Source of the DNA: Devosia beringensis
GTDB taxonomy: Bacteria > Pseudomonadota > Alphaproteobacteria > Rhizobiales > Devosiaceae
DNA: 64,000 bases
NCBI RefSeq assembly: GCF_014926585.1
Contig: NZ_CP045422.1
Location: forward strand, 1,280,501 to 1,344,500
Direction: 5' to 3'
Positions 14,261 to 18,731 of this stretch are shown here, one piece after another; the stretch's first letter is position 1; the number at the start of each line of letters is the position of its first letter. The notes beneath the pieces are model-generated. The model searched no databases. It was not told where the DNA came from and saw only the letters and a program-made list of their open reading frames with translations. The translations under genes and the position numbers were made by a program.

Positions 14261-16123
14261 ATGCCCCTGCCCGATGACCTGCTGATCCACGCCACCGATG
14301 AAGTCCGCATCCGGCAGAACCTGGCGCTGGTAGCGCTGGGCAAGCGCCCGGCGGACCGGGCGGTGCGGGTGGGGCGACTGCTCGATGTCTATGGCCGCAA
14401 CTGGCATGAGGATCAGGAGATCGTCATCGCCGGCCGCCGCATTGCCTGGGTGGGACCGGCCGACGCCTATCCCGGCGACGTGGCAGAGCGCGTCGATGCC
14501 CGTCACCTCAGCGCCGTGCCCGGCTTTGGCGAGGTGCACAAGCATGTCGAATCCAGCCACCTGACGCCCGAATACGAGGCCGCCCTGGTGCTGCCGCATG
14601 GCAATACCTGGACTTGCGAGGCCAGCCACGAATTTTCCAATGTCGATGGGCCGCATAACCTCGAATTCTGGCTGACGGCGCGGCTGGCCGGCTCGCCGAT
14701 GAAGATCTTCCCGCTGCCCGGCTCGGCCGTGCCACCCACGGCCTATGAATGGGGCGGCGGGCATTTCGGCTATGACGAGCAGCAGAGTTTTCTCAAGCAA
14801 CACCTGATGGTGGCCGGGCTCGACGAGGTGATGGACTGGCCGGCGGTATGGAACCCGGAAAACCCCTCCTATGAGCGGCTCTGGGGCATGATCCGCGCCA
14901 CCTTCGAGCAGCGTGGCGTGGTGGAGGGCCATGCCGCGGGCATGCGTGGCATCAATGACATCAACGCCTTCGCCGCCGCGGGCATGGCCTCGGACCATGA
15001 GGCCTGGACCACAGAAGAGGTGCAGGACAAGCTGCGGCGGGGCCTCTTCATCGAGCTGCGGCCGCATTCACTGCCCGAGATGATCAAGGGGCTATTGGCG
15101 GCAGGCCAGGCGGACTGGTCCAACTTTGCCCTCTGCACCGATGACCGCTCCTGCTCCGATACGCTGCGGATCGGGGCCACCGACCATAATGTGCGGCTGG
15201 CCATAGAAGCAGGCCTCGCGCCCGAAATCGCCATCCAGATGGTGACGATCAATCCGGCCCGCCACATGCGGCTCACGCCCTGGGTTGGGGCCATCGCGCC
15301 CGGACGTTTCGCCGATCTGGTGCTGCTCGACGATGTCGCGACGCTCTCGATTGCCCAGGTCTGGGCCGATGGCGAGCAGGTTTCGTCAGGCAAGGATTTT
15401 CTGAAACCGATCCCGGAAATTGCGTGGCCGGAATGGGCCACCAAGACCGTCAATATCGAGCGCGAGATGGTGGCGGCGGATTTCGCGATTGCCGCCGAGC
15501 CCGGGCGCGAAAGCATGCAGGCGGCGGTGCTGCGCCCGTTCCACTGGGACGACAATTTCATCACCCTGGAACTGCCCGTCGCGAACGGCGCGGTGCAGCG
15601 CGACAGCAGCCGCAACGTGACCAAGTTCGCCATTGTCGACCGCTTTTCGGGCGAGGGTAAAACCTCCAAAATGTTCTGGCTGGGCACCGGCCCGAGCACG
15701 CCCGACGTGGCGCTGGCCTGCTCGATGGGACACGACAAGCACAATATCTGGGTGGTCGGCTCCTCCGACGCCGCCATGGCGATCGCGGTCAATGCGCTGC
15801 GCGAAAGCCAGGGTGGCTGGGCGCTGGTGCGCGACAGTCAGCTGGTCGCCACGGTGCGCTACGAGGTGGGCGGGCTGATGACGCAAAGGCCGCCGGAAGA
15901 ACTCGACGCCGAGATGCAGGAGCTCTACCGGCAGGGGGAAAGGATCGACTGGATGTATGAGCCGACCTTTTCGCCGCGCTGGTGGCCCGGCTTTCCGGAA
16001 CGGCTGGCCTTTGCCACGCTGACCTGCGCGCCCTGGCGCTGGGTGCTGGTGGCGCCCTCACCCCTGGCGACGGCGGGCTTTGTCAATGTCGCCACGGGAG
16101 AGACTCACCCCATCGTCTGGTGA
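14261..16123 (+). CDS. ade: Adenine deaminase
   Basis: A 620-residue amidohydrolase of the adenine deaminase (Ade) family, converting adenine to hypoxanthine and ammonia. Motifs align one by one with E. coli Ade: metal-binding VHKHVESS (His-x-His), SHEFSNVDG for PHEIxNVxG, EVMDWPAV, GHAAGM, SDHEAW and CTDDRSCSD, and in the C-terminal domain GHDKHNIWVVG. Start ATG 14261 has AAGGA eight bases upstream. It stands next to two nucleoside hydrolases and a phosphoribosyltransferase, completing a nucleoside to base to hypoxanthine route. The last 19 bases overlap the convergent DoxX gene. Confidence 0.92.
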   Translation: MPLPDDLLIHATDEVRIRQNLALVALGKRPADRAVRVGRLLDVYGRNWHEDQEIVIAGRRIAWVGPADAYPGDVAERVDARHLSAVPGFGEVHKHVESSHLTPEYEAALVLPHGNTWTCEASHEFSNVDGPHNLEFWLTARLAGSPMKIFPLPGSAVPPTAYEWGGGHFGYDEQQSFLKQHLMVAGLDEVMDWPAVWNPENPSYERLWGMIRATFEQRGVVEGHAAGMRGINDINAFAAAGMASDHEAWTTEEVQDKLRRGLFIELRPHSLPEMIKGLLAAGQADWSNFALCTDDRSCSDTLRIGATDHNVRLAIEAGLAPEIAIQMVTINPARHMRLTPWVGAIAPGRFADLVLLDDVATLSIAQVWADGEQVSSGKDFLKPIPEIAWPEWATKTVNIEREMVAADFAIAAEPGRESMQAAVLRPFHWDDNFITLELPVANGAVQRDSSRNVTKFAIVDRFSGEGKTSKMFWLGTGPSTPDVALACSMGHDKHNIWVVGSSDAAMAIAVNALRESQGGWALVRDSQLVATVRYEVGGLMTQRPPEELDAEMQELYRQGERIDWMYEPTFSPRWWPGFPERLAFATLTCAPWRWVLVAPSPLATAGFVNVATGETHPIVW

Positions 16124-16602
16124 GCCGGCGCCTGCCGCCGGCGCAGACCACCCGCCAGGGCATCAAGTGAGAGGCGGCCGCCGCCAAAGGCCATCAGGCC
16201 CAGGGCCATGGCCGCCCAGGGCAGATGGAAATTGATCAGCCCATCGGGGATGGTCAATTGGATGACCAGCGTCATCAGCAGAATGCCGAGGGCGGCAAAG
16301 CGCGTCCCCAGGCCCAGTATCAGCAGCACGGGCAGCACCAGTTCCCCGATGCCGGCGAGGAAGGCGGCGGTCAACGGGAAAGGATAGGCCAGCGCCTGCC
16401 CGAAGATATGCAGTTTGAACTCCTGTACGAACAGGTAGCGCGCGCCGCTGGAGAGGCTGAACCAGCCATCCCATTTGGTCAGCCCCGAGCGCCAGAAAGG
16501 GAGGGCCAGCGCCAGCCGCAGCGCCAAGAGGCCAATGGAGGGCGGGATGGACGCGATCAGGCGATCGAGGTCCTGATAGGGCTGAACCAGTCTATGCAGC
16601 AT
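16105..16602 (-). CDS. DoxX-family membrane protein of the bufferin operon
   Basis: A 165-residue membrane protein with four hydrophobic helices (LLALRLALALPFWRSGLTKW; AFLAGIGELVLPVLLIL; ALGILLMTLVIQLTI; AMALGLMAFG), the DoxX layout. I start at ATG 16602 ([11 protein letters not shown]), which overlaps the end of the DUF2063 gene by 11 bases. DoxX proteins are frequent fourth members of MNIO/DUF2063 clusters and may handle redox or electron supply at the membrane; the exact role is not established. It is the distal gene of the four-gene operon. Confidence 0.85.
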   Translation of the reverse strand: MLHRLVQPYQDLDRLIASIPPSIGLLALRLALALPFWRSGLTKWDGWFSLSSGARYLFVQEFKLHIFGQALAYPFPLTAAFLAGIGELVLPVLLILGLGTRFAALGILLMTLVIQLTIPDGLINFHLPWAAMALGLMAFGGGRLSLDALAGGLRRRQAPAHQTMG

Positions 16603-17371
16603 GCGCGCTTCCTGTGGCTTGAATTGGTTGGGCGAAGGCGCCGAGATTGCACAGCCCCACCAGCGCACGGCCGACATCGAACGCATCCGACAAGCCGGTG
16701 GCAGCGGTGGCGGCCGCGCCGAGCGCGGCGCCCTCGAACAGGTGGTGCAGGAACAGGGCATCGGCTTGCGGGATGACGGTCACCATCACGTCCAGCGCGG
16801 GCCGGCTGATCAGTACCGCCTCGGCACCAGGGCGCACCGTGACGCCCTCGGCCTGGTGCGCCGACCAGATCGAGCCCACCGGGAAGGCGGAATGGATCAG
16901 GCCGGCCGCCGGATGGGATGCGAGGCGGAGCTCTGGCACCGTGGCCTGGTCAATCGTGGCCAGGGCAGTGATCGACATCGGCACCATGTCGGCAGCGTTG
17001 TAGGCAATGGACCAGGCTTCTTCGAGCCTGGCCATGTCGGCTAGGTAGGGCACGGCGCGGGCGGGGTCAAAGCTCTCGATAAAGGCGGCAAAGTCGGCGC
17101 CATAATGCTGCATGATCGGCGAGCGTGGTTTGTGGTCGGCGACGTAGAGCCGCGCCATGGCGGTGAAGAAGTCAGCGCCGACAAGGCGTTCGCAGACCGG
17201 ATACTTCGCTGCCAGCACGCCAACCAGGCCGACATGGACATTGTTGCGATAGACGGCAAAGCGTTTGGCGTCACTGTCGCCGCGATGGGACACAATGCCG
17301 GGCGGCACGGGCAGCGCCGGATCGACCAGGGCGGCAGCAAAAGCGGCCTGGGCGACGAGCGGCGCGATCAT
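16592..17371 (-). CDS. bufC1: DUF2063 partner protein of an MNIO enzyme (BufC-type)
   Basis: A 259-residue protein with the DUF2063 opening: [16 protein letters not shown], then [33 protein letters not shown], in short KRFAVYRNN and YPV..LVG. The C-terminal half resembles the winged-helix-like part that recruits the precursor peptide in homologues. Its start overlaps the MNIO gene as ATGA (17368-17371), so the two products are made together and probably form a heterodimer. Family knowledge: such partners present the RiPP precursor to the iron oxidase. The C-terminal 3 codons overlap the DoxX start. Confidence 0.88.
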
Positions 17372-18237
17372 GCCACGCGCTCGCGCGGCTGGTGCCGCTG
17401 CGCCGCTTCTGCCAGCGCGGCATCGACAATGCCGGCCTCCTCGGCCAGCACGGCAAATTCAGGCACGTCATTGTCCCATTCGACCAGGGTCGGCAGCGGA
17501 CCGGTACGCGCCAGGGTATGCGTATAGAGCGCAAAGACGTCGGGACTGACGCGGGAGGCATGCGCATCGATCAGCAGCCGGTCCCCGGCGGCATCGGTGG
17601 TCTCGTCATAGCCGGCCAGATGGATTTCGCCGACCTGATGCAGCGGGAAGCGGTCGATATAGGCGAAGGGATCGAGCCGATGGTTGACGGCCGAGACCAT
17701 GACATTGTTGACGTCGAGCAGCAGGCCGCAGCCGGAGCGCTCGGCAATGGCGGCGAGGAAATCGACCTCGTCGATGCTGCTCTCGGCAAACAGGACATAG
17801 GTGGAGGGGTTTTCCAGCAGCATGCGGCAGCCCAGCGCCTGTTGCACCTGGTCGACATGGGCGACGACATTGTCCAGCGTTGCGGGCGTATAGGGCAGCG
17901 GCAGCAGGTCATTGAGCCTGCTCTCCTCATGGCTCGACCAGGCGAGGTGCTCGGAAAAAGACTGGGGCCGGTAGCGCTCGATCAGCGCGCGCAGGCGGCG
18001 CAGATGGTCGCGATCCAGCGGGCCGGCGCCACCGATGGAAAGGCCCACGCCGTGCAGCGACAGCGGATAGTGCGCGACGATGTCGGCGAGGTAGCGGTGC
18101 GGCGGACCGCCATCGCCCATATAGTTTTCGGCATGCACTTCGAAAAAGCCGATAGGTGGCCGGGTGGCCAGGATCTCGGCATAATGCTGGGGCTTGAGCC
18201 CGAGGCCGGCGCGCGGCGGCAGGTTGGCTGGCTGCAT
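17368..18237 (-). CDS. bufB1: MNIO-family (DUF692) multinuclear non-haem iron oxidase, BufB-type
   Basis: A 289-residue TIM-barrel enzyme with the DUF692 metal-site blocks in order: [71 protein letters not shown] and [10 protein letters not shown]. Enzymes of this family use two or three iron ions to oxidise cysteine side chains in ribosomal peptides; BufB-type members make thiooxazoles in bufferins. I start at ATG 18237, eight bases after AAGGG, rather than at GTG 18246, which follows the ribosome site with no spacing. Its gene lies 66 bases after the precursor and is coupled to the DUF2063 gene. Confidence 0.9.
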
Positions 18238-18303
18238 GATGATCACCCTTGAACAAAGGCCGGAGATCCGGGCAGCCGGACCTCCGGGGCAATGGTGGCC
18301 GGA

Positions 18304-18597
18304 TCAGGCCTTGGGCAGATCGCGATCGAGCTCTTCGAGCGAGCCCATGCGGTCGCCTTCGAAGGACATGGTCAGGCAGGTGCCGGCTGGCACGGCCTTC
18401 CAGGCATTGCCCTGATAGTCGATCACCGAGGTACCGGCGCAGGTGGTGCCGGGACCGGCAGCACAGTCATTCTGGCCGGCCAGGGCGACGCCATAGCATT
18501 TTTCGGTGGCATCCTGAGCGGTCGCGGTCTGGACCGAAACGGCGGAGAGGGCAGCGAGCAGAGAGGCGGCGAGAACGAGTGAATTGCTGGGCTTCAT
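18304..18597 (-). CDS. bufA1: Bufferin-type (DUF2282) precursor peptide
   Basis: A 97-residue secreted peptide precursor. Residues 1-28 form a signal peptide ([19 protein letters not shown], cleavage after ATAQ). The mature part has four cysteines at 34, 45, 53 and 74, in [22 protein letters not shown] and PAGTCL, which is the DUF2282/BufA1 pattern. Known bufferins have such cysteines converted by the MNIO enzyme and bind copper in the periplasm. AAGGAA lies seven bases before ATG 18597. It is the first gene of the operon, as expected for a highly expressed precursor. The acidic tail ([12 protein letters not shown]) is unmodified-looking. Confidence 0.9.
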
Positions 18598-18688
18598 GGT
18601 GTGTTCCTTCCTTGCGGCGAAGCCCTGACTGGCTTCGTGCAGGTTAGTTCGCGCCACCGCGCCGGCCGTTACCGGCCTTCAGATCACG

Positions 18689-18704
18689 AGTTCGTGTTCG
18701 AACT
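18689..18704. promoter_or_regulatory. Small palindrome upstream of the bufferin operon
   Basis: AGTTCGTGTTCGAACT has two six-base arms that pair perfectly. It lies about 90 bases upstream of the precursor start, in the 134-base gap to the L,D-transpeptidase gene. It could be an operator or part of the promoter; a further GC stem, GGGGAG..CTCCCC near 18713, may end the upstream transcript. Confidence 0.25.
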
Positions 18705-18731
18705 TGAAGCGAGGGGAGATCGCTCCCCGGA

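Follow-up and report, generated by a model that had tools for sequence, protein, structure and literature searches.

Here, we describe a four-gene bufferin operon and its control region, found in a 64,000-nucleotide stretch of the Devosia beringensis genome (C1:1280501-1344500) from now on referred to as the window. Based on genome comparisons, it is likely that this operon is controlled by an unlinked pair consisting of the extracytoplasmic function (ECF) sigma factor SigF and the anti-sigma factor NrsF together with a second DNA-binding input, and that the bufferin is part of an envelope stress-repair response. Taken alone, the operon is ordinary because its enzymes and precursor add one more member to a family already described. 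The variant lies in the wiring: one promoter box ties a predicted thiooxazole copper peptide to the repair of methionine sulfoxide, a second conserved promoter element adds to this arrangement and the box is missing at the methionine sulfoxide reductase (msr) genes of four relatives lacking NrsF. Through a remote stress regulator and a further DNA site, the putative copper-peptide operon of this soil bacterium appears to be connected to oxidized-protein repair, which makes it directly testable whether bufferins act against copper, oxidants or both together. The operon and the elements upstream of it are:

16105..16602, minus strand: doxX, DoxX-family membrane protein, 165 aa (PF07681, 62.7 bits, cut-off 23.6)
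16592..17371, minus strand: bufC, DUF2063 partner protein, 259 aa (PF09836, 96.5 bits, cut-off 27.2)
17368..18237, minus strand: bufB, MNIO-type maturase, 289 aa from the ATG at 18237 (NF050167; alignment to PDB 3bww)
18304..18597, minus strand: bufA, bufferin precursor (DUF2282), 97 aa (PF10048, 84.2 bits, cut-off 22.4)
18648..18672, minus strand: promoter box GTAACGGCCGGCGCGGTGGCGCGAA of the sigma-F (ECF16) type, with its end 51 nt upstream of the bufA ATG
18684..18697, no strand: palindrome TCACGAGTTCGTGT, candidate CenR-like operator, conserved, 11 bp upstream of the box
18689..18704, no strand: palindrome AGTTCG-N4-CGAACT, present but not conserved

The complete operon is of the Buf1 type, a known kind of bufferin operon, here in a Devosia-group genome. 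The positions (16105-18597) and minus-strand orientation given in the initial annotation were confirmed based on open reading frames and profile matches. All four proteins score above the cut-offs of their Pfam families, including the precursor against the DUF2282 profile, the search by which that annotation had proposed to check itself. BufB reaches 348.4 bits against PF05114 (cut-off 25) and 382.2 bits against the NCBIfam bufferin-maturase model NF050167 (cut-off 310), and the two top-scoring named BufB relatives come from Devosia ureilytica and D. marina, in agreement with the earlier description of the genome as Devosia-like. Profile searches of the whole genome (one contig, 4.05 Mb) returned a single match each for MNIO, DUF2282 and NrsF. 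The bufB and bufC genes overlap by 4 bases, bufC and doxX by 11 bases with the doxX start at 16602 chosen in the present analysis, and 66 nt separate bufA from the bufB ATG at 18237; an alternative GTG start at 18246 would yield a BufB of 292 aa. Aligned to PDB 3bww, BufB retains most histidine and acid motifs. Replacement of N175, D242 or H244 is reported to abolish the activity of HvfB (PMC13419390), and via the 3bww alignment these residues appear to correspond to the LDVNN stretch (174-178) and D224-x-H226 of BufB. A Buf2 or oxazolin identity was also considered and rejected, with the NCBIfam models BufA2 (24, cut-off 60), HvfC (57.9, cut-off 142), HvfX (52.4, cut-off 80) and HvfB (234, cut-off 360) all staying below cut-off on the operon proteins.

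BufA contains four cysteines at positions 34, 45, 53 and 74 that are invariant across 43 aligned sequences (42 of 43 retained BufA proteins plus the BufA of the window). A set of 80 named loci, which encode near BufB relatives and were covered up to 5 kb on either side, yielded 79 BufA proteins; 78 of these share the 10-7-20 spacing of the cysteines. Judged by eye, the hydrophobic N-terminus with its AQ-type end represents a putative Sec signal peptide. The AlphaFold model of BufA has a mean predicted local distance difference test (pLDDT) score of 73.2 and a predicted template modelling (pTM) score of 0.56. In the reported Buf1 model, the two central cysteines are modified and the outer two are joined as a disulfide (PMC12452194, section 14). 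As only the central cysteines are modified in that model, Cys45 and Cys53 are the expected modification sites, a correction to the earlier account of cysteine modification in this four-cysteine, 97-residue precursor. Bufferins have been described as copper-sequestering (PMC12452194), and by analogy with Buf1/DUF2282 family members the operon probably yields a copper-binding peptide of an established kind, as the initial annotation had proposed.

Sigma-F boxes and the unlinked SigF/NrsF pair

It had been noted before that no sigma/anti-sigma pair adjoins the operon and that its control may therefore differ from that of some described operons. The observation is correct: the single NrsF match in this genome (C1:2695744-2696355, 223.1 bits) lies 1.4 Mb from the operon, with sigF alongside. 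The sequence itself points away from the conclusion, as bufA is preceded by a sigma-F-type box and a SigF/NrsF pair is encoded elsewhere in the genome. The box is the sole match within the window, where 0.10 would be expected. In Caulobacter, where the sigma-F box is reported as GTAACC-N16-CGAA, the bufferin operon CC2907-2905 is likewise located apart from sigF (CC3253) (PMC3511200).

Across the D. beringensis genome, the pattern GTAAC-N16/17-CGAA occurs 16 times. Nine of these boxes precede bufA, sigF, an MrpX-like operon, two msrA genes, two msrB genes, a DsbD/CcdA-like gene and a DUF1223 gene, so that every MsrA (2) and MsrB (2) gene of the genome has a sigma-F box upstream. The box at sigF ends 11 nt before the gene, which is located together with nrsF at C1:2.696 Mb. 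One box heads a divergent operon encoding an apparently secreted Met-rich protein that matches no Pfam family, together with a cytochrome b561-type protein and a molybdopterin oxidoreductase, the gene layout of the MrpX/MsrPQ systems (PMC8315932). NrsF carries cysteines at positions 129 and 179, and Cys129/179 of OsrA are reported to be needed for its normal function (PMC3420878). As a separate observation, the reversed pattern occurs 84 times, making the box pattern about five times rarer than this control, as if avoided elsewhere.

In a survey of 75 genomes of the genus, DUF2282 was found in 17 (21 genes) and NrsF scored over cut-off in 53. NrsF is present in all 17 bufA genomes compared with 36 of the 58 others (Fisher 0.0017, kinship ignored). 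For 19 of the 21 bufA genes, a strict box was found no more than 300 bp from the start, always ending 47-64 nt before the ATG (two starts corrected). The msr genes were analyzed in 12 genomes hand-picked from the 75, eight with NrsF, including D. beringensis, and four without. A box is found within 420 bp of the Msr domain for 22 of 32 msr genes in the NrsF-containing genomes versus none of 16 in the NrsF-less ones (Fisher 4e-6, kinship ignored; the count excludes row L115, which covers a fragment of the G067 gene already represented by L114).

Spacing differs between targets. Fifteen of the 19 genus bufA boxes contain an N16 spacer, as does the box in the window, while N17 is found in 22 of 22 msr boxes, 27 of 27 sigF boxes and, outside Devosia, in 39 of 45 named bufA boxes. 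One might speculate that a higher threshold results from the shorter spacer. Among the 80 named loci, 45 encode a SigF or NrsF relative within the stretch, and in 38 of these bufA is preceded by a box; linkage is therefore common outside the genus. Nine of the 35 remaining loci, both Devosia loci included, have a box, and none of the 14 Pseudomonas loci has either a box or a linked SigF/NrsF. Within the genus, two bufA genes (G024; G019 C10) are near nrsF by coordinates, whereas the operon of the window is not.

A conserved palindrome upstream of the box

The palindrome at 18689-18704, which had been put forward as a possible control site, does exist, but AGTTCG-N4-CGAACT is not conserved among 11 aligned genus bufA promoters and was rejected as an operator, whereas the overlapping site at 18684-18697 is conserved. 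This site, TCACGAGTTCGTGT, reading ACACGAACTCGTGA on the operon strand, differs by one mismatch from TCAC-N6-GTGA, which surfaced as the second conserved stretch in the promoter alignment. Allowing up to one mismatch, 18 of the 19 genus bufA boxes have the palindrome in the 90 bp upstream of them. The palindrome is also found upstream of 25 of the 30 boxes of the divergent set (those not classed as sigF, three of them from locus L062), in 24 of the 25 cases at a distance of exactly 4 bp. By comparison, 2.9% of random 90-bp stretches from the same genus loci, which hold sites themselves, contain it.

In the named loci, the palindrome accompanies 28 of 33 CGAA-type boxes and none of 14 CGTA-type boxes, with a background of 1.5%. 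After reduction of 52 box-bearing bufferin promoters to 48 by identity, it is located upstream of the box in 42. When all 256 half-sites were ranked across 13 gaps, CACG-N4-CGTG (24/48 exact) and TCAC-N6-GTGA (19/48 exact), which represent the same site, came out on top; 20 shuffles of the 48 promoters, preserving base content only and scored at even gaps only, never gave more than 3. The CGTA-ending bufA boxes without palindrome, found in L142, L144, L145 and other Rhizobium-group loci, look as if a distinct sigma-F subgroup acted on them.

The D. beringensis genome contains 19 exact palindromes. Two of these lie no more than 90 bp upstream of one of the 16 boxes, a region in which 0.007 would be expected. 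Box and palindrome occur together at four places: with an exact palindrome at the MrpX-like operon and the DsbD-like gene, and with one mismatch at bufA and the secreted msrA; no palindrome is found at the boxes of the cytosolic msrA, either msrB or the DUF1223 gene of this genome. The split is not strictly one of periplasm versus cytosol because one of the msrB genes without palindrome encodes a Tat-like N-terminus, as judged by eye. In three of the four NrsF-less genomes, a TCAT-N6-GTGA form precedes the secreted msrA, where no box is found, and the palindrome therefore looks like a separate input. Searches of an open-access literature collection returned no description of this second element for bufferin promoters.

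Two explanations of the palindrome were discarded. That it simply belongs to the sigma-F promoter is at odds with the TCAT form without box in those three genomes and with the 14 CGTA-type boxes lacking it. BufC, whose family PF09836 is labelled a putative DNA-binding domain, was rejected as the binder, since DUF2282-less genomes of the genus, G003 and G008 for example, have the palindrome before the MrpX-like operon as well (no search for BufC itself was made in them).

Proposed control of the operon and competing explanations

We propose that an oxidant or metal in the envelope would be sensed by the membrane anti-sigma factor NrsF via Cys129 and Cys179, resulting in the release of SigF. This unlinked ECF16 sigma factor would then transcribe bufABC-doxX and also drive the MrpX/MsrPQ-like operon, the DsbD/CcdA-like gene and all four MsrA and MsrB genes. 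A second protein, with the envelope response regulator CenR as the best candidate, would bind the palindrome at bufA, the MrpX-like operon, the DsbD-like gene and the secreted msrA, thereby raising or gating the regulon members that bear its site. BufB and BufC would convert Cys45 and Cys53 of BufA to thiooxazoles before Sec export. Once in the periplasm, the product would acquire the Cys34-Cys74 disulfide and bind copper; DoxX may serve as an accessory membrane protein. More tentatively, Hyphomicrobiales bufferin operons may share a composite promoter consisting of an ECF16 box and a CenR-type palindrome. The peptide would be made when NrsF and CenK-CenR signals coincide, together with periplasmic methionine-sulfoxide repair genes, and would then form one branch of oxidative repair in the envelope instead of a self-contained copper device.

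Parts of this arrangement are known from other ECF systems. Caulobacter sigma-F is reported to control two bufferin operons, CC3254-3257 and CC2907-2905, which contain DUF2282, DUF692 and DUF2063 genes and, in one case, DoxX; further similarities are the GTAACC-N16-CGAA box, an NrsF with two key cysteines, the location of one operon away from sigF and a YedY-type gene in the regulon (PMC3511200). In contrast, D. beringensis encodes one bufferin operon, apart from sigF, the box also precedes MsrA and MsrB genes, and the available part of the Caulobacter account makes no mention of a palindrome (PMC3511200). EcfF-OsrA of Bradyrhizobium (PMC3420878) and BcrS-AbcS of Brucella (PMC8315932) are likewise ECF16 systems with NrsF-type anti-sigma factors carrying Cys129/179. 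Their targets include Msr genes and a cytochrome c biogenesis gene, or a Met-rich peptide with MsrPQ; however, no bufferin genes are among the targets given in the accessible text of these reports (PMC3420878, PMC8315932). The ECF16 sigma factor of Sinorhizobium meliloti RpoE7-EcfR7 does control a DUF692/DUF2063 operon, but one that is adjacent and divergent (PMC6180224). In Haemophilus influenzae, a single HOCl-induced ECF regulon, that of RpoE2, comprises msrAB and an MNIO/DUF2063/DoxX operon, differing in its anti-sigma factor and in a precursor that is not DUF2282 (PMC7907618). The coupling of msr and MNIO genes is not unique because this regulon has both; the additions over it are DUF2282, ECF16 and the palindrome. 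The RpoE2-regulon precursor is an oxazolin.

Several observations weigh against control by SigF/NrsF in response to an oxidant. Compared with GTAACC-N16-CGAA, the spacer of the bufA box is one base shorter and a G replaces the last C. The other 7 of the 16 boxes do not precede such targets: three lie within long same-strand reading frames, two have no assigned gene, one is located 24 bp before a dehydroquinase gene and one 137 bp before a major facilitator superfamily (MFS) transporter gene. Two of the 21 genus bufA loci (L027 and L034) and 10 of the 32 msr genes in NrsF-containing genomes are without a strict box, and the 12 genomes of the msr comparison are related as well as hand-picked. 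Caulobacter sigma-F genes are reported not to be induced by agents generating reactive oxygen (PMC3511200). In S. meliloti, RpoE7 fusions gave no response to H2O2, CdCl2 or K2CrO4 (PMC6180224), and the signal may therefore not be an oxidant.

With respect to function, the operon could be a copper-only bufferin system under its own copper-responsive control, the box and palindrome before bufA being incidental. Bufferins are indeed reported as copper-sequestering (PMC12452194), and the 14 Pseudomonas loci with neither box nor linked SigF/NrsF indicate that other control exists in the family. We nevertheless consider this improbable given a box at 19 of 21 genus bufA genes, NrsF in 17 of 17 bufA genomes and an expectation of 0.10 boxes in the window. 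Alternatively, the product could mainly be a periplasmic oxidant sink or redox peptide with copper binding as a secondary property. The box shared by bufA and methionine-sulfoxide repair genes and the HOCl induction of the H. influenzae MNIO operon (PMC7907618) would fit this idea; it is still unlikely, since published bufferins and captophorins bind copper (PMC12452194, PMC12668002) and co-regulation is no proof of function.

As for the protein that binds the palindrome, motif similarity leads us to lean slightly towards CenR. In S. meliloti, the sequence bound by CenR is AGTCAC-N6-GTGACT, which lies next to the -35 element with its centre at -42 (PMC9561847). One of the CenR sites of R. sphaeroides, at cenR, is ACACGAGCGCGTGAG, and msrA is activated by CenR in that species (PMC9275681). 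The palindrome in the window is an inverted repeat of this type, with one mismatch, adjoining the -35 side. CenK-CenR systems share with our set both the inverted repeat TCAC-N6-GTGA by the -35 element and targets such as msrA, dsbC and cytochrome c maturation genes; on the other hand, one of the two papers gives a direct repeat, TGA-N8-TGA, and neither a bufferin nor an ECF16 promoter is among the sites given in the available portions (PMC9561847, PMC9275681). Further points against CenR are that, among the 49 palindromes listed for the D. beringensis genome (some counted twice because loci overlap), a crude motif flagged no response-regulator gene alongside, and that the DUF1223 gene has no palindrome, its product being a relative of PDB 2axo, as SrlA is. 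ArsR proteins often regulate their own genes, and another regulator, such as an ArsR-family protein, could bind the palindrome instead. The promoter of the S. meliloti ArsR gene SMc01226 contains ATTCACGACGTTGTGAAT, which fits the palindrome consensus (PMC9561847). This seems rather doubtful, as the SMc01226 repeat came from a search with the CenR-bound repeat (PMC9561847) and ACACGAGCGCGTGAG at cenR is itself among the R. sphaeroides CenR sites (PMC9275681). Separately, the D. beringensis genome has further intergenic TCAC-N6-GTGA-like palindromes (L199, exact; L247, one mismatch) in the neighbourhood of genes identified by eye as L,D-transpeptidase-like and DsbD-like, as would suit an envelope regulator.

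Additional bufA copies and hairpins around bufA

Four genomes of the genus (G002, G019, G029 and G040) contain two bufA genes each. The copy at L037 (G029) has a doxX match and, within its short extent, no bufB or bufC match. Two hairpins were noted near bufA in the window:

18260..18287, minus strand: bufA-bufB hairpin with a stem of 12 pairs and a tail containing T, which may act in attenuation or mark a processing site
18713..18728, no strand: GGGGAG-N4-CTCCCC hairpin, directly after the upstream L,D-transpeptidase-like gene

The GGGGAG-N4-CTCCCC hairpin was not called a terminator by the scan. The bufA-bufB hairpin is among the 2 terminator-like sites found, with 1.3 expected. A stem of at least 9 pairs is present between bufA and bufB in 16 of the 21 genus loci, with differing sequences (the shuffle control preserved base content only). 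The hairpin may hold the level of the precursor above that of the enzymes.

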